Shown here: positions 26,827-36,880 of the stretch, in pieces
Position numbering within the stretch: position 1 is the first letter of the stretch
How the letters are laid out: each line of letters opens with the position of its first letter
Origin: Peristeroidobacter soli
GTDB taxonomy: Bacteria; Pseudomonadota; Gammaproteobacteria; Steroidobacterales; Steroidobacteraceae
Assembly (NCBI RefSeq): GCF_004138485.1
Contig: NZ_RYEV01000005.1
Span: 62,001 to 126,000, forward strand
DNA: 64,000 bases
Reading direction: 5' to 3'
Notes under the pieces: generated by a model
The model's input: only the letters and a program-made list of their open reading frames with translations
Database searches by the model: none
What the model was told of the DNA's origin: nothing
Translations under genes and position numbers: made by a program

Positions 26827-27577
26827 GAAGCCAAGATCTGAGGGCGGCGCAGCTACGCTTGCGGACGTTTGGCCAGCAGGGGCGACAGACGCGAGCGGTC
26901 GTATCGTTTCACCACCAAGCTCACAGACCAAAGCTGACACGCCGCAACTGCAGCCCGGGGCTCAGCGAACCGACCTGGCGCGTGAAGTTCGCGTCGACGA
27001 ACGCGATCTGCGACCTCTTGGAACCGAACACAATAACTTGCCACGGCAACCGCGCTTTAGCACGGAGACGGTTGCAGGAAAATTACTAAAGCACGGGAGT
27101 GCGCCCTACCTCTTCGAGAGAAACCAGCGTCAGAGCTACTACGCGACGATCTTGACCTCGGAAGGGTATCGAACGCTGTGGGGCCCGGGGCTGCGAAAGG
27201 CAATCGAGCAGTCTCAGACTCGGATCCGGGTTGGAGACCGGGTGATGGTCCGACGCGTAGCGAATGCGTCGGCCCCTCGGCGCGTGAGATGGCAAGCCGA
27301 GAAGCCGGAATGGTTCGGAACGCGAGGAAACGAAGCTCGACGTTTGCGCGACGATCATGTCGCCGCTCTGCGGATCTCGCGTGGAGATTCGGAGTTGTTT
27401 CAGACGATGCTGGCGATGCAGGCAGCAGAGCGGGTTGCCGACCAACGACTGAGTGACCCAAAGAAGCGCTTGAATTTCATTGCGGGCGTCGCCAAACGCC
27501 TCCAGGAAAAAACTCAGCAGAACCAATCGGTACCTTCGCCGAAATTGCGCAACCGACGCGACGAGCGCAGCCGCTGA
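26819..27577 (+). CDS. Conjugation accessory protein with HG-YF domain (paralogue 3)
   Basis: A 252-residue protein. Residues 84-150 repeat the domain seen in the two upstream paralogues (VAGKLLKHGSAPYLF, QSYYATILTSEGYRTLWG), and residues 195-240 repeat the helical tail (MLAMQAAERVADQRLSDPKKR). The N-terminal third is polar and probably disordered. It ends the collinear transfer block; the cassette array begins about 30 bp later. Confidence 0.65.
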   Translation: MSEKPRSEGGAATLADVWPAGATDASGRIVSPPSSQTKADTPQLQPGAQRTDLAREVRVDERDLRPLGTEHNNLPRQPRFSTETVAGKLLKHGSAPYLFERNQRQSYYATILTSEGYRTLWGPGLRKAIEQSQTRIRVGDRVMVRRVANASAPRRVRWQAEKPEWFGTRGNEARRLRDDHVAALRISRGDSELFQTMLAMQAAERVADQRLSDPKKRLNFIAGVAKRLQEKTQQNQSVPSPKLRNRRDERSR

Positions 27578-27605
27578 AGCAGGCGGGATTGCTGAGTTCA
27601 ATCCT

Positions 27606-27720
27606 ATCACGGCGATCCCTCCGTCAAGGACGAGTGCGATGACGCACTCGCCGCCTGAGGCGGTTGGGATCCTTGACTCCGAGATGCGCCGCGATGGATT
27701 GCATTCGGGCAATCCCGCCC
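27606..27720 (+). promoter_or_regulatory. Structured leader L1 (before DUF932 fragment)
   Basis: Stems: ATCACGGCG/CGCCGCGAT (27606-27614 with 27687-27695, one mismatch), GTCAAGG/CCTTGAC (27623-27629 with 27671-27677), inner hairpin CGAGTGCG-ATGA-CGCACTCG (27631-27650), inner hairpin CCGCC-TGA-GGCGG (27651-27663), and final GGGC-AATCCC-GCCC (27707-27720). The Shine-Dalgarno GAGGGA and ATG 27745 follow. It is one of seven related leaders and probably a cis-acting RNA. Confidence 0.75.
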
Positions 27721-27744
27721 AAGCAAATCAATTGAGGGATCGTC

Positions 27745-28227
27745 ATGAAAACCATCCAGACACTTCTGGGCGATATCGATTGCGACAGCGCGTTCGTCGG
27801 CGGGCTCGATCGCATGCAACTCGAGAAGCTGACACCAGCTGTCTACGCACAGGCTCCCCATGAGAAGCTGAGTGCGAAGTATGCCTTCTTGCCGACCTCA
27901 GTCGTCATTGCAACGATGGGTGAGGCGGGGTTCAACGTAGTTCAGGCCGCTCAATCACGATCCCGCCGTGATTTGCCGGCGTTCGCCCGTCACGCGCTGC
28001 GATTCCGCAGAGCCAAGTCCGAAGTCTATGTCGGGGAGGTTGTCCCGGAGATTCTGATCCTCAACTCCCACGATGGCTCGAGCGCATATCTTATGTTTGG
28101 ATGTATTTGTCACCGGACGTGGGGGAAATGCTTGAAATCCAGTATTTGCAACGCTGGGACCCAGCGCAACAAGAAAGGTGACAGTTATGGTGCTCGCGGG
28201 GTGTCGAGGCGCTTTTCCATTCGGTAG
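27745..28227 (+). pseudogene. DUF932 (antirestriction-type) gene, truncated
   Basis: The first 117 residues match the DUF932 family common on plasmids and ICEs (YAFLPTSVVIATMGEAGF, SRSRRDLPAFARHALRFR, VGEVVPEILILNSHDGSSAY). Homology stops abruptly at about 28098 after SSAYLMFG, and an unrelated tail runs to a stop at 28227, overlapping the 3' end of the opposite GNAT gene. Full-length relatives are about 270 residues or more, so the 3' half is lost, perhaps when the GNAT gene arrived. Its leader L1 is fully preserved. Confidence 0.75.
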
Positions 28228-28661
28228 TTCGTCATGAATTCGCCTCGTACAGTGACTGTCTGCGGAACGATGACGCGAAATCCCATCGCCTCAAAGAGCG
28301 GGCGTGCCGTAATGCTCGCCTCTGTGTATAGACGACGCAAATCTTGGATGCGGGCCGCCTCTTCAATCTGCTGAAGTAAAGCACGGGCCACGCTACGACG
28401 CTGAAAATCGGGGTGGACGTAGAGCATGTCGACATGTCCATCGGGCTCGAGGTCGGAGAATCCAGCGATTTGGTCTTCGATCTCGGCGACCCATGTTGAT
28501 TTACTCTCGCATCGCTTTCCAAAGCTCCTCACATCGATGACGTCAGGCGCCCGAGCCTCGATTTGAGATGGGCTGTAATCGCGCCCTGCGATGCGTCGAA
28601 CGGAGGCAACTACGGCTGCGGAATCAGCCGCTCGATAGGTTCGAATGACGATCCCTGGCAT
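28185..28661 (-). CDS. GNAT-family N-acetyltransferase
   Basis: A 158-residue acetyltransferase. The acetyl-CoA site is visible as VDMLYVHPDFQRRSVARALLQQ (motif A with the Q/RxxGxG/A-type loop, here QRRSVA), and motif B lies at RLYTEASITARPLFEAMGF. It is the only cassette gene on the minus strand and has no leader of the L1-L7 type. A CGCTGGG-A-CCCAGCG hairpin lies just past its stop (28152-28166). The substrate is unknown. Confidence 0.8.
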   Translation of the reverse strand: MPGIVIRTYRAADSAAVVASVRRIAGRDYSPSQIEARAPDVIDVRSFGKRCESKSTWVAEIEDQIAGFSDLEPDGHVDMLYVHPDFQRRSVARALLQQIEEAARIQDLRRLYTEASITARPLFEAMGFRVIVPQTVTVRGEFMTNYRMEKRLDTPRAP

Positions 28662-28703
28662 GTCGGAGGAAGAGGCGGGCGAGATTGCGGGATGGCTAGG
28701 ATA

Positions 28704-28821
28704 CCAACGCCGGTCTCGCGGTCAATGGCTACGCGCGAAGCGCGCTTGCGGCCCGCTGGGCCGGCTTCGCCCATTGACCGCTGCGCTGCGGCGTGGAGCG
28801 GGAGCGCGGGCAATCTCGCCC
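28704..28821 (+). promoter_or_regulatory. Structured leader L2 (before ardB)
   Basis: CGGTCAATGG/CCATTGACCG is a perfect 10-bp stem (28719-28728 with 28771-28780). Inside are CGCGC-GAA-GCGCG (28732-28744) and GGCCC-GCT-GGGCC (28750-28762). CCAACGCCG/CGGCGTGG closes the base with one bulge. GGGC-AATCTC-GCCC (28808-28821) precedes AAGGA and ATG 28843. The fold is the same as in L1 with different stem sequence. Confidence 0.75.
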
Positions 28822-28842
28822 CAATCGAAAAGGATCCCGCTC

Positions 28843-29268
28843 ATGAATACCTCCACTGATCTGATGTCGCAGTCGATCCAAGCGCGCCGAGTTGCCGAAG
28901 CTGAGCGACTTGAGATGCTGCCTCGGCACTTCGGTCGTCACATGCTTACCGTGGAAGATGCAGTGTATACCTTCATGCGAAGGCTCGCTCCTCAGTATGC
29001 CGGCGGTTACTGGAATTTCATCGAGCTCTCAAACGGCGGGGTTTACCTTGCGCCGCACGGGGAGACAATCTTCCGGATCGACGTCGAAGGTAACGGCTTC
29101 TCGGGTGAGATGAGTGCGGATGCTGCAGGCATCACGGCTTGTCTTTTTGCACTGAGTCATCTGTCGTTCCAGATCGCGGACGAGTGCATCGCGGATCACT
29201 TCCATTACCTGCGGGAGTTCGCGCTGTCGCACGCCGAAGCCGGAACAATCCTGGCAGCGATCGACTGA
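28843..29268 (+). CDS. ardB: Antirestriction protein, ArdB/KlcA family
   Basis: A 141-residue antirestriction protein. The family hallmarks are LPRHFGRHMLTVEDAVYTFM, YAGGYWNFIELSNGGVYLAP, MSADAAGITACLFALSHLSF and HYLREFALSHAEAGTILAAID. ArdB/KlcA proteins inhibit type I restriction enzymes without mimicking DNA, protecting an incoming element after conjugation. ATG 28843 lies after leader L2; a strong terminator follows. It is the best-recognised gene of the cassette array and hints that its neighbours also counter host defences. Confidence 0.92.
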   Translation: MNTSTDLMSQSIQARRVAEAERLEMLPRHFGRHMLTVEDAVYTFMRRLAPQYAGGYWNFIELSNGGVYLAPHGETIFRIDVEGNGFSGEMSADAAGITACLFALSHLSFQIADECIADHFHYLREFALSHAEAGTILAAID

Positions 29269-29280
29269 TCCGCCGCGTGG

Positions 29281-29311
29281 CCCGGGCGCAGCGATGCGCT
29301 CGGGTCTTTTT
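29281..29311 (+). terminator. Intrinsic terminator of ardB
   Basis: CCCGGGCGCA-GCGA-TGCGCTCGGG (29281-29304, one G-T pair) followed by TCTTTTT. The GGGCGCAG core recurs in hairpins after three other cassette genes. Confidence 0.85.
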
Positions 29312-29323
29312 AAGTACGACACC

Positions 29324-29753
29324 TCAGTGCCGGTGCGCGCCGCGCGGGGTGGAAGAAACGACCGTCAGCCGCGCGGGCAACTGCTTGCGAAGCTGCGCGA
29401 GCTCTCGGTCGCGGCGCTCAAGGAGTGTGCTGGTCTCGCGATAGGCGGTGAAATAATGGTCCACGAGGGGCGAGCTGCGCCACGCGCTCGCGCAAGACCG
29501 CGCTCTCGCGCTGGCGATGCGCGGCCGCACGTCGGGCTTGGGTGCGCGCAGACTTGCGAGGTTGATGACGACGCAGCCGCGCAAGAATCGAAGCATGATA
29601 GCGATATAGCGAGTTGCGGGAGACGTCGGCGAGCCGGCACAGTTCGCTCACCGTCACGCGCGGTGGACGATGGCGAGTGTCCGCCGTCAGTCGCTCGAGC
29701 GCATCGCTGAGCCGTGCGCGAGCAGGACGCTCAGTACGTGGTGTTGGAGGCAT
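29324..29753 (-). pseudogene. DUF6262/TnpC-like recombinase accessory protein, frameshifted
   Basis: From ATG 29753 the frame gives PRVTVSELCRLADVSRNSLYRYH, a helix-turn-helix like that of the small third protein of Tn554-type recombinase modules, followed by a coiled region (RRAAAHRQRESAVLRERVAQL). A run of four G (29467-29470) shifts the frame; removing one base joins ALVDHYFTAYRETSTLLERRD and a stop at 29324. It lies directly downstream of a truncated integrase remnant, matching such modules. Family name is from memory. Confidence 0.6.
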
Positions 29754-29972
29754 GTGACTCTCCTGGGGATGAATCGAGCGCGCGAAGCATCCGTTGGGCT
29801 TCCGACAGGCGTTCGCGCGCGATCTTGAGGGTCTGTGTCGGCAGCGCCGGGATGTTGAGCAGATGCTCGTACCGTTGCTGCTGTTCTTGCCAGTAGGGTC
29901 GATGCGATACTGAAACCACGAAGTTGAGGCAGCGACGTCACCCCACCTTTCAGTAGCACGGTGATTTAGAGT
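29731..29972 (-). pseudogene. C-terminal remnant of a site-specific integrase
   Basis: The minus strand encodes HRPYWQEQQQRYEHLLNIPALP and LSEAQRMLRALD, resembling the C-terminal tail of integrases from Tn554-like modules, with its end overlapping the DUF6262-like start. Upstream, FQYRIDP joins it after a one-base shift, then the sequence is cut by the IS3 element. No catalytic residues remain. Confidence 0.5.
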
Positions 29973-29999
29973 CCGACCCCAGAGACGGATGTTGGACGG

Positions 30000-30263
30000 G
30001 TGAAGAAGCGTTTTTCTGAAGAACAGATCATTGGTTTTCTGCGGGAAGTGGATGCCGGCGTGCCGGTCAAAGAGCTGTGTCGCAAGCACGGCTTCTCGGA
30101 GGCGAGTTACTACCTCTGGCGCAACAAGTTCGGCGGCATGGAGGTCTCCGATGCGAAGCGGCTGAAGGCGTTGGAGGCCGAGAACGCGCGCCTGAAGAAG
30201 CTGCTGGCGGAGTCGATGCTAGAGAACGAGGTGACGCGCGAGGCGTTGCGAAAAAAGTGGTAG
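30000..30263 (+). CDS. IS3-family transposase OrfA
   Basis: An 87-residue HTH_Tnp_1 protein from GTG 30000 ([44 protein letters not shown]) with a leucine-zipper-like C-terminus ([17 protein letters not shown]). The A AAA AAG slippery site at 30251-30257 near its end allows -1 frameshifting into orfB. Confidence 0.92.
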
Positions 30264-31105
30264 GCGCACCAGCTCGACGCGAGGTGGTGCGCTGGATGAC
30301 GCCACAAGGCCTGTCCGAACGCCGGGCGCTGCAGATCATCGGGATGAGCGCGAGCTCGTTGCGATATCAGCCAGCGCCGGATCGCAACGGCGAGCTGCGC
30401 GAGCAGATCGTGCATCTGGCGCAGCGCCATCGCCGCTACGGCGCCGGGATGATCTACCTGAAGCTGCGTCAGGCCGGCCATCGCGTGAATCACAAGCGCG
30501 TGGAACGGCTCTACGCGCAGGAGAAGCTGCAGGTCCGCCGGCGCCGACGGAAGAAGATACCGATGTCGGAACGACAGCCGTTGGAGCGCCCGTCGGAGGC
30601 TAATTCCGTGTGGTCGATGGATTTTGTCTTCGATCGCGTCGCTGGTGGCCGTGCGATCAAGAATCTCGCGGTCGTGGACGATGCCACACACGAGGCGATC
30701 GCCGTCATTCCAGAGCACAACATCAGCGGTCGTCAGCTCGTGCGTATGCTCGAAGATATCTGTAGCCGCCGCGGCTACCCCAAGGTGGTTCGCACCGACA
30801 ACGGCAAAGAATTTTGCGGCCGAGCGATGCTGGCGTGGGCGCATGAGAAGCACATACTGCTGCGGCTGATCGAGCCAGGCAAGCCGAACCAGAACGCCTA
30901 CATCGAATCGTTCAACGGGCGCCTTCGAGACGAATGCCTCAACGAGCACTGGTTCACCAGCCTGGCGCACGCAAGAACGGTCATCGAAGCCTGGCGGCGT
31001 GAATATAACGAGGAGCGTCCAAAGCGAGCACTCGGCGGGCTCACGCCATCACAGTACGCAACGCAATTGGCAGAGAAGGCGGTTACAGTAACGGCCGGGC
31101 TCTAG
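30251..31105 (+). CDS. IS3-family transposase OrfB (DDE integrase)
   Basis: Read from the frameshift site, this part is about 285 residues. The HTH_21 region ([32 protein letters not shown]) is followed by the rve core with D in WSMDFVFD, D in VRTDNGKEF and E in [14 protein letters not shown]. The frame is also open upstream to 30077, but the protein is normally made as an OrfAB fusion. Looks intact. Confidence 0.92.
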
Positions 31106-31208
31106 AATCATCTGCTACTCAAAACGGGGTCACGTCGGTCCGTCTGCACTGTGAGTGCTTGGCTCGGCGCAGGAGTGATAGGCGGCGAACTTGCCGGACG
31201 CGAACGGT

Positions 31209-31327
31209 ACCGCCAGAGATTCGGTCCCCAAAGAGGCGCGCAGACGCGCGCCCGCCGCAGACGGCGGCTTCGCTCTTTGCGGGCCGAATCTCTGGCGGTC
31301 GCCCGATCGCGGGCAATTTCGCCCGCG
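31209..31327 (+). promoter_or_regulatory. Structured leader L3 (longest stem)
   Basis: ACCGCCAGAGATTCGG (31209-31224) pairs perfectly with CCGAATCTCTGGCGGT (31284-31299). The stem continues through an imperfect stretch to CAAAGAG/CTCTTTG (31229-31235 with 31273-31279), about 29 bp in all. Inner hairpins are GCGCG-CAGA-CGCGC (31236-31249) and CCGCCG-CAGA-CGGCGG (31252-31267). CGCGGGC-AATTTC-GCCCGCG (31308-31327) is the terminal hairpin, 15 nt before ATG 31343. Confidence 0.75.
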
Positions 31328-31342
31328 ACGGTGAGACTTATC

Positions 31343-31720
31343 ATGAATGATTCAGCCAACAATGAGAGTCCTTCTGGCGACCGGGGCTCCAGCATCCGTG
31401 CTGGGCAGATGCTGCACCTGAGAGAGCTGTCAGCTCAACTTCGTGAGACTGGCCTCGTGCGATTGAAGGCTTTATACGAGATGGTGGATGGCAGGGCCAT
31501 AGTCGGAATCGTCTGTCTCGATGCCAATGATCAGCCTGTTTTACCGCGTTGCCCGATGGGTACTCTGGCAGAGGCTCTTAAAACATTTGAAACTCTCTTG
31601 AACGAGAGGGTTCGTGAACTAGGAGGCGGGGCGGTCGATGGTGCTGGGGAGTTTGACTGGGATGTTGTCGATAACAATGTCATTCACAAGCACGTGATCA
31701 CTTATAACAACTTCGACTAA
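31343..31720 (+). CDS. DUF6878-like small protein, paralogue A
   Basis: A 125-residue soluble protein. The C-terminal pattern DGAGEFDWDVVDNNVIHKHVITYNNFD aligns with the other two paralogues (GEFEWELVRDELTHVHG and GRIDWNLARNELVHKHH) and with the DUF6878 type, which has a GWENNDGAYGEF-like core. Function is unknown. It sits behind leader L3, with a GTCCGGGC hairpin downstream. Start ATG 31343 follows GGTGAG. Confidence 0.65.
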   Translation: MNDSANNESPSGDRGSSIRAGQMLHLRELSAQLRETGLVRLKALYEMVDGRAIVGIVCLDANDQPVLPRCPMGTLAEALKTFETLLNERVRELGGGAVDGAGEFDWDVVDNNVIHKHVITYNNFD

Positions 31721-31732
31721 ATAACTCGTGGT

Positions 31733-31758
31733 GTCCGGGCGCAGAGATGTGCCCGGAC
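31733..31758 (+). terminator. Hairpin after DUF6878-like gene A
   Basis: GTCCGGGCGC-AGAGAT-GTGCCCGGAC is a 10-bp stem (one G-T pair), 13 bp past the stop. It contains GGGCGCAG like the ardB terminator but has only a short T-run downstream. Confidence 0.6.
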
Positions 31759-31986
31759 GCCGCGTTTACTATAGCCACACATTACCTCGTCTGATGACCG
31801 GAATTGTTGGATTGCCTGAGCTCACGAGCGTAGCACGCCTTATGTTTTGATCACGCGATGCTCGGGGTTGCACGTACGCAACGCCGTGGGCCGGGCTTGT
31901 CCTACGAATGAGATTGAGCCAGTCCGCCTGAACTACGGAGGGAAAGCAGAGGAAGAGAGTGACGAATTGCCTACCGATCCAGCCTA
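31759..31986. other. Gap between cassettes without a clear gene
   Basis: About 230 bp between the hairpin of cassette A and leader L4. Open frames here are short and lack recognisable features; a promoter for the next cassette could lie here but I cannot place one. Confidence 0.4.
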
Positions 31987-32101
31987 CCACCCCGTGCTCG
32001 CTGTCAACATCGCGCGCAGGCGCGCGACCCGGCGAAGACGCCGGGCGTTGCGTTGACAGCTTGCGCGCGCGGTGGAGCAGCGGTCGCGGGCAAATTCGCC
32101 C
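31987..32101 (+). promoter_or_regulatory. Structured leader L4
   Basis: GCTGTCAAC/GTTGACAGC (32000-32008 with 32052-32060) is a perfect 9-bp stem. It encloses CGCGCG-CAGG-CGCGCG (32011-32026) and CCCGGCG-AAGA-CGCCGGG (32028-32045). CCACC/GGTGG (31987-31991 with 32071-32075) closes the base. GGGC-AAATTC-GCCC (32088-32101) precedes GGAG and ATG 32125. Confidence 0.75.
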
Positions 32102-32124
32102 AGCAAAGAAATGCGGAGCTCACC

Positions 32125-32406
32125 ATGGGCGCCTTGTTTGAATTTTATTTCGGGGAAAATATTCCTAATGATGAGGTCGCAGTAAGAGTGGCTGAAGCGG
32201 CAATCCGAAGAAGTCGAGAAAACGAGGGATCGGGGCCCTACACAGGTGCGCTGGCTGAGTGCACCCGAGTCGAACTTATAAAAGAAGTCGCCGAAAGCAT
32301 TGACGACGCCCAAGCGCGATTGACTCAAATGCCGACGCGGGATGTGCTTCACATCATGCGCCTGAGGTCCGGGGGCTATGCCTTCGGGGCTTGGTGTAGT
32401 TGGTAG
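32125..32406 (+). CDS. Cassette protein of unknown function
   Basis: A 93-residue protein (MGALFEFYFGENIPNDEVAV, ECTRVELIKEVAESIDDAQAR). I do not recognise a family. Support comes from leader L4 and a GGAG Shine-Dalgarno at normal spacing. The middle is helical and acidic; the last 15 residues are glycine- and aromatic-rich. Confidence 0.55.
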   Translation: MGALFEFYFGENIPNDEVAVRVAEAAIRRSRENEGSGPYTGALAECTRVELIKEVAESIDDAQARLTQMPTRDVLHIMRLRSGGYAFGAWCSW

Positions 32407-32570
32407 CGCAGTGACATAGATCTCGGGGCTGCGGCGTTTGGTTAAGTGCTGCAGCCTCGCGTCTCTCTAAGGCGTGTGCGCATTCGCTTGGCCATGCCGG
32501 CTCGCCTCTCGTCATCTCGACCGAAGAGGAAGGGAGGGGAGTGGGGCTTGCATATGCGATTCCAGCGTAC

Positions 32571-32680
32571 CACGTCGTGCTCGCCGTCAAGAGTCGCGCG
32601 AAGGCACGACCGCCGAAACGGCGGCTGCGCTCTTGACGGCTGCGCGCGCCGTGCTGCTAGCGTCGTGGGCAATCCCGCCC
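32571..32680 (+). promoter_or_regulatory. Structured leader L5
   Basis: GCCGTCAAGAG/CTCTTGACGGC (32583-32593 with 32630-32640) is a perfect 11-bp stem. Inside are an imperfect GTCG/CGAC hairpin and CGCCG-AAA-CGGCG (32611-32623). GGGC-AATCCC-GCCC (32667-32680) ends 15 nt before ATG 32696, with GGAG between. Confidence 0.75.
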
Positions 32681-32695
32681 AGGCGGAGAACGATC

Positions 32696-33094
32696 ATGAC
32701 GGAGCGTAATAACGGAGAGCAGCTGGACGTAACCGAACCTCACCCCAGGATGCAACGCGTATCGCAACGTATGCCGGCTGTCGCAGCGATGTTGAAACGA
32801 GCCGACGTGTCTTACGTGCGAATCACTTACCAGGGTGAGTGGGATTCCGGCCGAGTGAACGATGCACTATTTCACGGTGCGAATGGCGAACTCATCAACC
32901 CATCCTTACCGGGAAGAGCACGACGAGCGCTCTGGGCATTCTTCCATGAGTTGCTCGAAGTGCGTCATCCTGGCTGGAAGAATGCCGAGGGCTCGCGCGG
33001 GGAGTTCGAGTGGGAACTCGTGCGTGACGAATTAACGCACGTTCACGGTTGGCGAAATTACAGTTACGACTTCGACTCCATGCGCGGGCTATAA
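32696..33094 (+). CDS. DUF6878-like small protein, paralogue B
   Basis: A 132-residue protein with the best family match of the three paralogues: YVRITYQGEWDSGRVND, then LLEVRHPGWKNAEGSRGEF and WELVRDELTHVHGWRNYSYDF. DUF6878-type proteins have no established function. It lies between leader L5 and a perfect 13-bp hairpin. Confidence 0.7.
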   Translation: MTERNNGEQLDVTEPHPRMQRVSQRMPAVAAMLKRADVSYVRITYQGEWDSGRVNDALFHGANGELINPSLPGRARRALWAFFHELLEVRHPGWKNAEGSRGEFEWELVRDELTHVHGWRNYSYDFDSMRGL

Positions 33095-33100
33095 CGTTGA

Positions 33101-33129
33101 CTGGGCGCAGATGTGGCATCTGCGCCCAG
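33101..33129 (+). terminator. Perfect 13-bp hairpin after DUF6878-like gene B
   Basis: CTGGGCGCAGATG-TGG-CATCTGCGCCCAG starts 6 bp past the stop. It has the GGGCGCAG core of the other cassette hairpins but no T-run, so it may terminate with Rho, stabilise the 3' end or be a cassette boundary mark. Confidence 0.6.
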
Positions 33130-33325
33130 ATCAAGCATTGATGCTCGGCTCAGCTGTCGTAGTTCGGCTCTTCCTCGTGGTTCCGGCTGATGCCTGCCAT
33201 CGATATTCGGTCGAGCCTGACTGCCTGCCCTCGCCAGTTGATCAAATCGCGCTCGCATTCAATCGCAACTCCAGCGGTGACTTCGATCCAACGAACTGGA
33301 GGCGGGTTGCAGACTGTTTGTATTC

Positions 33326-33441
33326 TATCACGCTGCGCTCGCCGTCAAGGGCGAGTGCTCGCGCACTCGCCGCCTGCGGCGGTCTTTGCCCCCTGACTGG
33401 CGAGCACAGCGTGATAAGCGCCCCTCCGGGCAATCCCGCCA
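33326..33441 (+). promoter_or_regulatory. Structured leader L6
   Basis: TATCACGCTGCGCTCGCC (33326-33343) pairs with GGCGAGCACAGCGTGATA (33399-33416), 17 of 18 positions. GTCA/TGAC and GGG/CCC continue it. Inner hairpins are GCGAGTGC-TCGC-GCACTCGC (33351-33370) and CCGCC-TGC-GGCGG (33370-33382). GGGC-AATCCC-GCC(A) ends at 33441. L6 is closest in sequence to L1. ATG 33464 follows GGAGAAGG. Confidence 0.75.
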
Positions 33442-33463
33442 TCAGATTGATCGGAGAAGGGCC

Positions 33464-33902
33464 ATGACCGACTTGTCTCACGTTTCATTGGAACAGCGAG
33501 TGTGTCTCGTCTGCGGATACAAGTATGAGACTGGCAGCATACTGCTGGATCGCCGACTGCGTGCATCAATGACGCGCCATAAAGTGGACTGGCTGGGGAC
33601 TATGCCCCGAGCATCTACGGCTTCACGAGGAGGGATACGTCGCCTTGGTGGAGTGTGACCCGGAGAGGAGTGACCTTGCTGGCACGGGCGACAGGGTTCT
33701 TCCGGAGAAAGTATTCCGAACCGGGCCGATCGCTCATGTCAAGCGAGAGATCTTCTCCGCCATCTTCGATATCCCTGTAACAAAAGATCAACCATGTATG
33801 TACGTCGAGCCTGGGGTCATCGAGAAGCTCCAGAGGGTCACGCAGAATCAACGTAGAGGCATTGGATGTCGCGAGAGGATACTTCGGTGTCCTCTCTTTT
33901 GA
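33464..33902 (+). pseudogene. Cysteine-containing cassette gene with a frameshift
   Basis: The frame from ATG 33464 encodes VCLVCGYKYETGSILLDRRLR and fails after KVDWLG. Removing one base near 33590 (gacTggctgg) restores GWGLCPEHLRLHEEGYVALVE and runs through PIAHVKREIFSAIFDIPV to a stop at 33902. This joined protein of about 145 residues resembles small plasmid proteins I recall with the same CLVC and GLCP pairs; their function is unknown. The leader L6 is intact although the gene is broken. Confidence 0.7.
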
Positions 33903-34030
33903 TGAGAGAAAGCTTCGTGATGAACTGGGAACGCGAACGAGCCCCGCTTGGCATAGCGGTTCGGGATGACGAGCAGCAGCTGCTTTCCCTCGGTTGGTGT
34001 CGGATTGGGATCGCTGTGCGTGCCATTCTA

Positions 34031-34155
34031 ACACGTCGTCCTCGCCCTCCAGACCCTGCGCACGCGAAGACGCGTGCTTGGCGAGTCGCGCATGGAACAC
34101 GCGAGTCTGGATGGCTGCGCTGCGACGTGTGCCGCTCGCGCGGGCGATCCCGCCC
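34031..34155 (+). promoter_or_regulatory. Structured leader L7
   Basis: ACACGTCG/CGACGTGT (34031-34038 with 34123-34130) and TCCAGAC/GTCTGGA (34048-34054 with 34105-34111) form the long stem. Inner hairpins are GCACGCG-AAGA-CGCGTGC (34060-34077) and TCGCG/CGCGA (34086-34104). GGGC-GATCCC-GCCC (34142-34155) ends 16 nt before ATG 34172, with GGAG between. Confidence 0.75.
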
Positions 34156-34171
34156 AGGATGGAGAATGCTC

Positions 34172-34561
34172 ATGACTCACCAGAGTGATAACTCGACACC
34201 CCGTACGGGCGGACCTTCCAGCCCAGAACTGATCGCGACTGTAGCTCCTCTCTACTGGCGTCTTCTGGCGGTGGGAGCGACGGAGCTGCGCATAGAATAC
34301 AACGGTCGGGAGGACGCCGGCGATGTTAGCTGCCACGCGAGCAATGCATTTGGGAAGAGGTTGGCTTCCGAATTCAATGAAGACCTCGCTAAGGAGATTA
34401 CGGTAGTTGTGCTGAAGCTGGTCGACCTGCGACATCCGAAGTGGTCGAAGGGCGAGGGGGCCTACGGTCGCATCGACTGGAATCTCGCTCGCAATGAGCT
34501 CGTCCACAAACACCATCGACGAACGGTCACGATCACGACGACCGAGCATCGAGGCCTCTAG
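34172..34561 (+). CDS. DUF6878-like small protein, paralogue C
   Basis: A 129-residue paralogue of A and B: ELRIEYNGREDAGDV, VDLRHPKWSKGEGAYGRIDW and NLARNELVHKHHRRT mark the family. An in-frame ATG two codons earlier (34166) is possible; GGAG fits 34172 better. Leader L7 precedes it and a terminator-like hairpin follows. Confidence 0.7.
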   Translation: MTHQSDNSTPRTGGPSSPELIATVAPLYWRLLAVGATELRIEYNGREDAGDVSCHASNAFGKRLASEFNEDLAKEITVVVLKLVDLRHPKWSKGEGAYGRIDWNLARNELVHKHHRRTVTITTTEHRGL

Positions 34562-34571
34562 CTCGTGTTTC

Positions 34572-34612
34572 ATCTCGGGCTCGCGCGCAGCGTAGCGTGG
34601 GTCCGAGATTTT
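34572..34612 (+). terminator. Terminator after DUF6878-like gene C
   Basis: ATCTCGGGCTCGCGC/GCGTGGGTCCGAGAT is a 15-bp stem with three G-T pairs and an 8-nt loop, running into TTTT. The loop-side GCGCAG word matches the other cassette hairpins. Confidence 0.7.
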
Positions 34613-34686
34613 CGCCCTCAACGTTCAGGACGCGAACGCGTAGCTCGGCGCTGCCGCAGGGCTTCGATTGGCGGCAGATCCGGCAG

Positions 34687-34730
34687 AAAAATCCGTGCCA
34701 GCGCGCAAAGCCGCCCTCGCACGGATTTTT
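34687..34730. terminator. 12-bp inverted repeat, terminator-like in both directions
   Basis: AAAAATCCGTGC (34687-34698) and GCACGGATTTTT (34719-34730) are perfect inverted copies around 20 nt. The T-runs at both ends suit bidirectional termination. It replaces the L-type leader before the next small gene; further short hairpins (GGCTCC-CCCT-GGAGCC at 34747-34762) follow. Confidence 0.5.
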
Positions 34731-34836
34731 CGAGTGCAGCCAGTACGGCTCCCCCTGGAGCCAGGGCTAAGAAAGCTCCCCATGGGGGTGAGTGGGCCGC
34801 GAAGTGTGGCTCGTGCCAACGCGGGAGCTGCGTGCC

Positions 34837-35133
34837 ATGGGTAAGTGGAAGATCGAGTTAATCAGTCAGGATCGCGTTCTTGTGAAATACCAATGTGCGC
34901 GGGGCAGATATTCCATAGAAATCGGATTGACGGAAGAGAGGGACGAGGAGGGCCGTCGCATGTGGGGTGACTTGTACAGTTGGCGCACGATGAGCGTCAT
35001 GACTCGCGATGAGGCGATAGCATTTGCGCGAGCCTCTCTGCTCAGGCAGGCGTGGGAGTGTCCGCCGTGCCAGAACTGCAAACGAAAGGGATCGTGGTGC
35101 GGTGAGTGCGTGTTTGAGCACGTGCCGTTCTGA
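34837..35133 (+). CDS. Small protein with C-terminal cysteine cluster
   Basis: A 98-residue protein: beta-rich N-terminal part (WKIELISQDRVLVKYQC), then SVMTRDEAIAFARASLLRQ, ending with CPPCQNCKRKGSWCGEC, which looks like a small zinc knuckle. I recognise no family. The ATG at 34837 is the most downstream in-frame start before the conserved-looking part; no strong Shine-Dalgarno is visible. Confidence 0.5.
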   Translation: MGKWKIELISQDRVLVKYQCARGRYSIEIGLTEERDEEGRRMWGDLYSWRTMSVMTRDEAIAFARASLLRQAWECPPCQNCKRKGSWCGECVFEHVPF

Positions 35134-35305
35134 GTGGCCAGGGCCGAGCTGGGACTGCGGCACCTCTTGTTCTTGTTCCCGAATCTACGCTGCACAGTGG
35201 CCTACAAATCAACGATCTGGCGCCAACCGATCTGGGGCGCGGCATTGGGTTGCAAGCGGAACCTTCTCGAACATCACAATCACGCGGGCCTTTTTGCACA
35301 AAGAG

Positions 35306-35340
35306 ATGGAATAGGCAGGATAGCCTTTCGGCTGCTCATG
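35306..35340 (-). other. Candidate origin of transfer with IncP-like nick site
   Basis: On the minus strand AGCC-GAAA-GGCT (35333-35322) is followed by TATCCTG|CC, identical to the IncP/RP4 nick core (CTATCCTG|CC), so nicking would fall between 35316 and 35315. A hairpin just 5' of nic is typical. The site lies 15-50 bp upstream of mobC and near the MOBP relaxase gene, the usual place for oriT. Inferred from motif and position. Confidence 0.6.
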
Positions 35341-35355
35341 GGCCACAGTCGTCCC

Positions 35356-35889
35356 ATGAGTCACACGCGCATCCTTCGCACCCGCCTGCCGGCGACGACA
35401 CACGCAGTCGTCGAAGCGATCGCGCGTCAGCAACAGCTCACAGAATCTGCGTGGCTGCGGCGCTTGATCGAGACGACGCTCCAGTCTTCGGGTGTGGTGC
35501 TCGAGGCGGGCTTGAGGGACGAGCCGCCACGCCAGGCGAGATTGATGGTCCGGCTTCTGGCGGATGATCAGGCGCTGCTCCATGCACGCGCCAAGGCGCG
35601 GGGAATGCCAATGGCGACGTATGCATCGGTGGTGATTCGGAGTCATCTACGAGGCGTGGCTCCTCTTCCCAAGGAGGAGCGGTTGTTGCTTACCCAATCG
35701 CTCGGGGCGCTAAGTTCCATCGGTCGCAACCTCAACCAACTCGCCCGACATGCGAACCAAGGGGGCAGGGTGACCGGCCCGAGCCGGGAAGATTTGAAGA
35801 CGCTGTTGCGTGCATGCGAAGGTTTGAGGAACCACGTCAGGCAATTGATCGACGCGAACCTGCGTAGTTGGGAGACGGGCCACGGGTAA
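35356..35889 (+). CDS. mobC: MobC relaxosome protein
   Basis: A 177-residue protein. The N-terminal half is ribbon-helix-helix-like (ILRTRLPATTHAVVEAIARQQ), and the C-terminal half matches the MobC family (LSSIGRNLNQLARHANQGGRV, LLRACEGLRNHVRQLID). MobC binds oriT and assists strand opening for the relaxase. It lies between the candidate oriT and the relaxase. An in-frame ATG at 35338 would extend it by six residues. Confidence 0.88.
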   Translation: MSHTRILRTRLPATTHAVVEAIARQQQLTESAWLRRLIETTLQSSGVVLEAGLRDEPPRQARLMVRLLADDQALLHARAKARGMPMATYASVVIRSHLRGVAPLPKEERLLLTQSLGALSSIGRNLNQLARHANQGGRVTGPSREDLKTLLRACEGLRNHVRQLIDANLRSWETGHG

Positions 35890-35932: not shown

Positions 35933-36880
35933 GTGAGCTATGGCCGGCGTTCGCCAGGACGCGGTCGAACCTTCACTCCGGCCGAGCGGGAGCAGATCGG
36001 TCGAACTGTGGCCCGCGTTCCCGAGGTCATGATCAAGGTGACGGGCGGCGGGCGAACTGTGGGCGCCGTGTGGAGACATCTTCGGTACATTGACCGGCGC
36101 GGTGAGCTTGAGCTTGAAACGGACGATGGGGAGAGGCTCCGATTGAAGGGAGCGGAGAAGGCGCTGCTGGAAGATTGGGGGCTTGCGCTGCAGGAGCGCG
36201 AAGACAAGGCGGTCTACACGGGCTTGCCAGGGAGAAAGCCGGCGAAGCTGGTGCATAACCTAATGTTCTCGATGCCGAAGGGAACGCCGCCACATAAGCT
36301 GCTGGCGGCCGTTCGTCACTTTGCTCAGGAGACGTTCGCGCTTCAGCATCGCTACGCGATGGTGCTGCACACTGATCAGGATCACCCCCATGTGCATCTC
36401 GTCCTGAAGGCAGTGAGCGAGCTGGGCACGCGTCTAAACATCCGCAAGGACACGTTACGGCAATGGCGGCGCGACTTTGCGGGAGCACTACGTGCCCAGG
36501 GTGTCGCCGCTAACGCGACGGAACGGGCGGTGCGCGGCGTGAGCAGAACGCATCAGAAGGACGGGATCTACCGGGCCATGCGCCGAGGGCAGTCGACGCG
36601 CTTCGAGGAGCGAGTGCAATCTGTGGCGGGCGAGCTGCGGAGCGGGCGAGTCGATTCGGGCGATGGCAAGGAAAAGCTCCTCGCGACTAGGCGTGATGTG
36701 GAGCGAGGATGGTACTCCGTAAGCGCGCTGCTAAGCCGCGATGGCGACTTAGATCTCGCGAGCCAAGTCCGGCAGTTCACAAAGGAGATGCAGCCGGCCT
36801 ACGTTGATCGTGAATGGATAGCCGCGGAATTCATGCGTCGATTGAGAGCCCCGACCCTGCAGCAGCCGAGGGCTCGCTAG
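35933..36880 (+). CDS. MOBP-type relaxase (VirD2/TraI-like)
   Basis: A 315-residue relaxase that nicks oriT and pilots the strand into the recipient. Motif III is clear: VLHTDQDHPHVHLVLKA (three-histidine metal site). The N-terminal part contains the helical region HLRYIDRRG and LVHNLMFSMPKGTPP. The first canonical start is GTG 35933, but codons just upstream, in frame, read RSQKPLLDIVSYG, which resembles the N-terminus of relatives, so the true start may be a non-standard codon further up. The protein lacks the large C-terminal domains of IncP TraI; those LPD7-type parts are encoded separately at 24-27.6 kb. Confidence 0.88.
   Translation: MSYGRRSPGRGRTFTPAEREQIGRTVARVPEVMIKVTGGGRTVGAVWRHLRYIDRRGELELETDDGERLRLKGAEKALLEDWGLALQEREDKAVYTGLPGRKPAKLVHNLMFSMPKGTPPHKLLAAVRHFAQETFALQHRYAMVLHTDQDHPHVHLVLKAVSELGTRLNIRKDTLRQWRRDFAGALRAQGVAANATERAVRGVSRTHQKDGIYRAMRRGQSTRFEERVQSVAGELRSGRVDSGDGKEKLLATRRDVERGWYSVSALLSRDGDLDLASQVRQFTKEMQPAYVDREWIAAEFMRRLRAPTLQQPRAR

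Follow-up and report, generated by a model that had tools for sequence, protein, structure and literature searches.

In Frpo and single-strand initiation (ssi) sites, a hairpin in single-stranded leading-region DNA rebuilds a -35/-10 promoter, as described in passages of PMC11541004 and PMC9849209. According to excerpts of PMC7430646, the single-stranded origin DNA of M13 is recognised by RNA polymerase through a downstream duplex, with neither -35/-10 nor sigma required. A further structured motif, STAXI, was described near antirestriction, SSB and integrase genes as repeated pseudoknots, for which the authors considered single-stranded DNA and then favoured RNA (Weinberg 2010, PMC2864571). 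We analysed a 64-kb stretch of the Peristeroidobacter soli contig NZ_RYEV01000005.1 (the window, to which all coordinates refer), in which each of seven small genes between 27.6 and 34.6 kb has one structured leader ahead of it; a NikA/MobC-like gene and then the gene of a MobA/VirD2-like relaxase come next. The leaders are real and are held paired by compensatory change. Judged from the sequence, each of them is very probably a promoter that exists only while the mobile element carrying it is single-stranded.

A preliminary description of this locus had reported seven leaders of one layout, and their tails, closing stems and ATG spacing are all present. The tail GGGC-RAnnyC-GCC occurs seven times in the window, on the plus strand only (27707, 28808, 31311, 32088, 32667, 33428 and 34142), and ends 15-24 nucleotides (nt) ahead of the ATGs at 27745, 28843, 31343, 32125, 32696, 33464 and 34172. 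Since a looser form of the tail is found 66 times in the 9.37-Mb host genome, seven of them within the array, specificity lies in the whole structure and not in the tail alone. For the detection of relatives a covariance model (R1) was built from four leaders. It recovered the other three (L2, L3 and L7) at 45.0-55.1 bits (E 1.4e-8 to 7e-11) and matched in 10 of 60 related genomes. From its 46 matches 43 were carried on (one truncated element and two opposite-strand echoes were dropped; locus L095 was judged false by eye), and 26 of these were aligned and used for a second covariance model (R2). The leaders are as follows, all on the minus strand, with starts predicted for plus-strand transcripts:

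27578-27723, minus: L1, ahead of the DUF932 gene; -35 TTGACG at 27627-27622, extended -10 TGATAGGAT at 27609-27601; base-stem arms 27720-27708 and 27592-27581; predicted start 27707; based on R1/R2 matches, column mapping and a fold including the base stem.
28674-28824, minus: L2, ahead of ardB; -35 TTGACC at 28725-28720, extended -10 TGGTATCCT at 28706-28698, spacer 16; base-stem arms 28821-28809 and 28688-28677; predicted start 28808; based on R1/R2 matches, mapping and fold; outside the R1 seed.
31180-31327, minus: L3, a divergent copy with a long stem; TTGGGG at 31231-31226, CGGTACCGT at 31212-31204; base-stem arms 31324-31312 and 31194-31183; predicted start 31311; based on R1/R2 matches, mapping and fold; outside the R1 seed.
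31957-32104, minus: L4; -35 TTGACA at 32007-32002, extended -10 TGGTAGGCT at 31989-31981; base-stem arms 32101-32089 and 31971-31960; predicted start 32088; based on R1/R2 matches, mapping and fold.
32538-32683, minus: L5; -35 TTGACG at 32590-32585, extended -10 TGGTACGCT at 32572-32564; predicted start 32667; predicted fold without base stem.
33297-33444, minus: L6, long stem near-perfect; -35 TTGACG at 33348-33343, extended -10 TGATAGAAT at 33330-33322; predicted start 33428.
34001-34158, minus: L7; TGGAGG at 34051-34046, extended -10 TGTTAGAAT at 34033-34025; predicted start 34142; predicted fold without base stem; outside the R1 seed.

Folded as minus-strand DNA, the seven leaders reached z-scores of -2.1 to -9.4, with 0-5 of 200 shuffles equally good. 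In the 26 elements, aligned blind to structure, 83.8% of the cells were paired, against 77.6% in shuffled and at most 45.1% in slid alignments. Changes on both sides of a pair that keep the pairing numbered 62 cells against 14.9 in shuffles, for a structure that had been drawn with sight of the same 26 sequences. The earlier proposal that compensatory change marks a selected fold is thereby borne out.

The R2 searches gave 105 rows, of which 88 remained after removal of 17 opposite-strand echoes and 84 after removal of four identical copies. These 84 distinct elements lie in 40 loci over 61 sources, and 83 of them, one truncated element being excluded, entered the base-by-base and base-stem counts below. 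An ATG frame of at least 50 codons begins 0-26 nt from the element in 79 of 84 cases, against 18 of 84 on the other side, and 75 of the 79 frames carry a Shine-Dalgarno-like motif. Among the 77 downstream proteins scanned (one of 1739 amino acids (aa) and one longer-start duplicate were left out), RadC was commonest (23), followed by DUF932 (16), Antirestrict (6), DUF2958 (4), N6_N4_Mtase (4) and DUF6878 (4). The elements thus do not occur irrespective of downstream genes, and the suggestion of one signal shared by several accessory genes is upheld.

The strand on which the leaders would act is indicated by a putative origin of transfer (oriT) beside the relaxase gene:

35315-35360, minus: oriT core; TATCCTG/C at 35322-35315, nick expected between 35316 and 35315.
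35335-35342 and 35353-35360: 8-bp inverted repeat of the oriT, CTCATGGG/CCCATGAG, adjoining the nic motif.
35359-35889, plus: NikA-like/MobC accessory protein, from the family search.
35933-36880, plus: MobA/VirD2-like relaxase, PF03432, E 7.6e-13.

The motif YATCCTGY occurs once between 26 and 40 kb, on the minus strand at 35322-35315, and the same nic is printed for pMAS2027 of MOB group P3 in PMC7755788. A TATCCTG/C nic thus stands beside a MobA/VirD2-like relaxase, as in MOBP origins, and its position next to mobC and the relaxase gene makes it very likely that the minus strand is the one transferred (the T strand) and that the array forms the leading region. Of 24 loci including the window, 22 have the nic motif on the strand corresponding to that in the window, at a distance of about 600-760 nt to the relaxase, and one has it on the other strand. 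In a first count, all 61 elements in 24 loci lay upstream of a related relaxase and folded on the opposite strand; 17 of these 61 lay in stretches fetched on the upstream side only, and at locus L148, with two relaxases, the fitting one had been taken. The count was therefore repeated on whole genomes with a nearest-relaxase rule. Within the 39 elements of 10 genomes, 34 had a related relaxase within 40 kb (14 relaxase loci) and all 34 kept the geometry. For two of the remaining five a PF03432 relaxase was found, with the element about 14 kb upstream of it and on the opposite strand. A later set comprised all 45 matches of 18 chosen genomes, six without a relaxase within 40 kb; 38 of the other 39 elements, at 26 relaxase loci, kept the geometry, and the single misfit, placed between two relaxases, has the expected geometry relative to the more distant one.

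On the minus strand of L1 to L7, TTGAC or a variant is followed after 15-16 nt by an extended -10 of the form TGnTAnnnT (CGG in L3). Across the family, in counts drawn partly from model-picked matches, the bases of TTGAC are conserved in 82/82, 78/82, 82/82, 79/82 and 77/82 elements. Within the extended -10, the TG is kept in 73/83 and 79/83, T-12 in 61/83, A-11 in 79/83 and T-7 in 79/82, and the three bases between A-11 and T-7 in at most 58/82 each. The best-kept positions, namely TG, A-11 and T-7, are those expected of a sigma-70 -10 element. The spacer is 15 nt in 76 of 83 elements. Some of the invariant bases of the first leader alignment lie outside the stems originally drawn. In duplex DNA the minus-strand promoter of each leader points away from its gene; in the minus-strand hairpin the promoter forms the 3' arm and runs from the tip down to the foot, where a polymerase would exit in the direction of the gene.

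These data bear directly on the preliminary description, which had favoured a regulatory RNA leader, with single-stranded DNA as the alternative carrier of the fold. An RNA leader of this kind (an attenuator or riboswitch-like element) would be transcribed from an upstream double-stranded plus-strand promoter and would control its gene by folding. The plus-strand RNA does fold well (z -1.4 to -8.2, with 0-21 of 200 shuffles equally good), and the elements lie directly ahead of an ATG. However, the main-stem wobbles in the structure-blind alignment are G.T 21 and A.C 0 on the minus strand, and a plus-strand RNA would give the reverse. With a model-fitted alignment of 83 elements the main stem has G.T 54 and A.C 7 (28 and 7 without the single most variable pair) and the base stem introduced below G.T 66 and A.C 26; wobbles are given as counts without a probability because related sequences are not independent. 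In 59 of 83 elements the T strand is the one with the lower DNA fold energy, which is weak evidence among related sequences. No excess of sigma-70 promoters was detected on the sense strand upstream (6.91 against 7.06 in shuffled sequence, n=82), the conserved bases left unpaired spell an extended -10 when the minus strand is read, and the strand is fixed relative to the relaxase. At gathering score no Rfam family lay over an element in the window, in seven related loci or in locus L157; the seven related loci gave three group II intron matches and one nhaA-I match, none overlapping an element. Wobbles, conserved bases and strand geometry favour the minus DNA strand, so that the alternative of the preliminary description is preferred and the RNA leader becomes improbable.

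The closing stem and the tail, GGCAATCCCGCC, of the preliminary layout stand; the upstream arm had been missed, and the tail is one arm of a base stem formed with it (27581-27592 in L1, with equivalents elsewhere). The unpaired template segment measures 12 nt in 48 of 83 elements and is followed by a pyrimidine-purine pair and then by the base stem; counted from the pair at -14, the purine is the predicted start at +1, and the base stem begins at about +2. The predicted start is a pyrimidine-purine step in 79 of 82 elements. Base-stem energies average -14.3 kcal/mol with an element's own partner, -11.7 with that of other elements and -8.2 with shuffled arms. An element's own arm beats the mean of the others' arms in 77 of 83 and all 50 shuffles in 56 of 83; among the 40 elements with a non-consensus arm it is better than the mean in 34. 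The base stem is present in the predicted fold of five of the seven window elements. Together with the open segment from -13 to +1, the predicted base stem imitates the open complex of RNA polymerase.

Two observations on the surroundings of the promoter may be added. A longer class of about 170 nt (L053 15866-17155, L093 14810-16880, L047 16782-16953, L050 2250-2422, L060 3341-3508, L094 1413-1579, and also L097) carries above the -35 a conserved insert, roughly GTGGAATAAATGG...GGCCGTTTATGCCGCGAAAG, in a possible UP element position. On the T strand a pyrimidine-rich run is frequent 3' of the base stem, as seen by eye in many elements.

A downstream duplex predicted from about +2 is also what would be expected of M13 ori(-)-type sites (ssi/sso), at which RNA polymerase makes primers for the second DNA strand and not mRNAs. 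There are up to seven copies per mobile element, one per gene, and the position of 79 of the 84 at 0-26 nt from an ATG, 75 with a Shine-Dalgarno-like motif, speaks against a site used for priming, which we hold to be quite unlikely as the sole role. Priming and mRNA roles may coexist. An ordinary double-stranded leftward promoter, giving antisense RNA to the upstream cassette, is very improbable; the -35/-10 does point leftward in the duplex and the L2 site passes a generic promoter scan, but the paired second arm, the base stem and the start dinucleotide on the other arm remain without an explanation. Sites of recombination like the attC of cassette arrays, which tandem units of hairpin and ORF (open reading frame) and the differing genes behind elements of different loci might suggest, are highly improbable, since the bases that are conserved agree with promoter boxes and an ATG comes immediately after.

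For the promoter of single-stranded DNA the following course of events is proposed. From the covarying pairs, the promoter-like conserved positions, the strand used, the side on which the elements lie with respect to nic and relaxase, and the distance to the ATG, all read from sequence, we infer folding in vivo, use by polymerase, the start site, early timing and transcription from single-stranded DNA. The oriT would be nicked on the minus strand, whose 5' end would enter the recipient first with the array leading, and each leader would fold during entry of the T strand. The 3' arm would serve as non-template strand, with the -35 near the tip of the closing stem and the extended -10 at its foot, and the 5' arm as template. 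The base stem from about +2 would provide the downstream duplex and the unpaired stretch from -13 to +1 an already open bubble; sigma-70 RNA polymerase could therefore load there, and transcription would proceed out through the base and on into the gene. The resulting mRNA would have a leader of 29-38 nt with the Shine-Dalgarno motif. Genes for self-protection could thus be switched on during entry into a new cell, and second-strand synthesis would abolish the hairpin and switch the promoter off. The early expression after entry suggested before is retained as the likely use. A further step, in which the same -35/-10 is reversed after duplex formation, yields antisense RNA against the upstream cassette and so actively reverses transcription of the entry array, seems rather doubtful.

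Several results weigh against a promoter of single-stranded DNA. A generic sigma-70 scan, restricted to spacers of 16-18 nt, returned only the L2 site in 27400-35400 against 2.0 expected, the spacer of 15 nt is shorter than the usual 17, and the -35 boxes of L3 and L7 are poor. The conservation counts are inflated, as they come in part from matches picked by a sequence-structure model. An element's own base-stem partner was no better than the mean of the others in 6 of 40 elements with a non-consensus arm, and in the predicted folds of L5 and L7 the base stem is absent and the tail stays a local hairpin. Wobbles of the inner hairpins show no preference for the T strand (G.T 26, A.C 35, in columns whose alignment across classes is poor). 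Of the 24 loci, L047 and L050 showed no nic motif, nor was one found on the T strand within 4 kb of the relaxase in three Tn4371-like loci, which hold one or two shorter nic matches on the other strand. In 6 of 13 match-bearing genomes and in 2 of the 18 later genomes no PF03432 relaxase was detected, other relaxase classes not having been searched. Finally, R2 matched in only 12 of 31 sources fetched for a related relaxase (the window, L041-L060, six further sources and four plasmids, with some overlap); as 19 lack a match, such mobile elements can do without the leaders.

R2 matches were found in 34 of 200 genomes of the family, in 6 of 369 sampled from the class and in 10 of 398 sampled from the phylum (where one match was weak and partial), the own genome being counted in all three samples. 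A further 45 of 200 genomes of the family of genome G165 had matches; the own genome is not part of that sample. In the larger searches stricter filters were used and weak matches were lost. The own genome has eight R2 matches in two places, each with a relaxase nearby. The second of them (L051, C1:1609194-1612244) has one element ahead of a DNA methylase-like gene. With the Delftia element as query, blastn listed 264 plasmid records, and a Hydrogenophaga plasmid record also holds a match. The copies of Delftia, Pseudomonas BYT-5 and E. coli pECO-109b all contain RepA, ParA, DUF2285 and a relaxase with DUF3363, Delftia also trb genes, a gene set by which we take them to be Tn4371-like integrative and conjugative elements (ICEs). 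R2 finds four elements in them (one in Delftia, two in BYT-5, one in pECO-109b), each of which lies upstream of the relaxase, on the strand opposite to it. The leader family thus reaches the Burkholderiales and Tn4371-like ICEs, including copies on enterobacterial plasmids. In the Tn4371 literature (PMC2789088), RadC-like ORFs are mentioned among the variable genes after int. Salmonella accounts for 150 of the plasmid records with a blastn match to the Delftia element; the listed ones are mostly about 195-325 kb long. A 5.4-kb contig filed as viral (L156) carries two elements, ahead of a DUF932-like (by eye) and a RadC-family gene, and is probably a piece of a conjugative element.

Compared with the described systems, the elements resemble the Frpo/ssi sites of the F and ColIb-P9 leading regions, as far as the cited passages characterise them, in their leading-region site, their hairpin-rebuilt -35/-10 and their several copies. 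By sequence and predicted fold, a T-strand hairpin holds the -35/-10 opposite its complement, and by nic motif and relaxase side the genes would be transcribed off the T strand in a leading region. The leading region of F is likewise annotated with antirestriction and DUF932 genes. Differences concern size and sequence. The F stretches taken as Frpo1 and Frpo2 (89% alike, upstream of a DUF932 pair and of ssb) are hairpins of about 300 nt, whereas the present elements measure about 150-200 nt, and R2 gave no match in plasmid F at 48-68 kb at E <= 0.001. The family therefore works like Frpo and is not filed as a sequence member; it is probably Frpo/ssi logic in a family not found in F. With the M13 complementary-strand origin, as excerpted in PMC7430646, the elements share the predicted loading of RNA polymerase by a downstream duplex; in contrast to M13, both -35 and -10 are conserved. 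STAXI, too, is a structured motif by antirestriction genes, but, by the description alone, its repeated pseudoknots set it apart.

The preliminary description had also raised Rfam's radC motif (RF01754). This motif stands ahead of radC-type and antirestriction genes; like the present elements it is known from Proteobacteria, and RadC is the commonest gene behind our elements (23/77). The identity was rejected: radC gave no window match at its gathering score (40 bits) and none in 27400-35400 at E <= 10. It was found in only one of 274 genomes of the class, where its four copies differ in sequence and fold from the leaders; read by eye on both strands, these copies had no apparent -35/-10 layout.

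The leader family is compact, with up to seven copies per mobile element. If the proposal is true, the elements could reveal entry genes without known function, because each of them marks one, and they would offer a small template on which to study initiation by RNA polymerase on single-stranded DNA. What looks like a strongly covarying 'leader RNA' can evidently be a DNA structure of the other strand. Two surveys for single-strand promoters used known and putative Frpo sequences as BLAST queries, according to passages of PMC11541004 and PMC12826799, and would therefore have missed this family unless it is already in the published putative set. Among the matches listed in the open-access literature no work describing the leader family was found, a comparison that did not extend to the published putative Frpo supplements; its priority is not certain.

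The window relaxase is 87% identical to a relaxase of Steroidobacter agaridevorans. Leftward of the array lie genes that read like those of a type IV secretion system, from translations only and without a family search. The genes behind the leaders are:

27745-28227, plus: gene 1, DUF932 by family search, 160 aa; its relative at the S. agaridevorans locus L041 has 275 aa, with 61% identity over the alignment.
28843-29268, plus: gene 2, an antirestriction protein (Pfam PF03230 Antirestrict, E 1.6e-33), which we take to be ArdB-type.
31343-31720, plus: gene 3; no family found in the family search.
32125-32406, plus: gene 4; no family above cut-off.
32696-33094, plus: gene 5, DUF6878 by family search.
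33464-33658, plus: gene 6, 64 aa; N-terminal likeness, by eye, to a 130-aa protein of the Delftia element.
34172-34561, plus: gene 7, DUF6878 by family search; a further in-frame ATG at 34166.

The genes had been called unrelated; several families are indeed represented, but genes 5 and 7 both match DUF6878, so they are not all different. The cargo looks partly broken: gene 1 (160 aa) is shorter than its relative of 275 aa in S. agaridevorans and gene 6 (64 aa) is short next to the 130 aa in Delftia, so that the array may be in decay in this copy. An insertion seems to split the array: two overlapping ORFs at 30000-31105, between gene 2 and L3, read as an IS3-type transposase (translations, no family search). 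Terminator-like hairpins with a common GGGCGCAG core follow genes 2 and 3 (29279-29306 and 31727-31764), hinting at one promoter-gene-terminator unit per cassette; in the region as a whole 6 such sites stand against 6.3 expected. On the minus strand at 28185-28661, an ORF resembling a GNAT acetyltransferase by eye is opposed to the direction of the array, and annotated N-acetyltransferases are likewise opposed to the cassettes in the Delftia and Pseudomonas BYT-5 elements.

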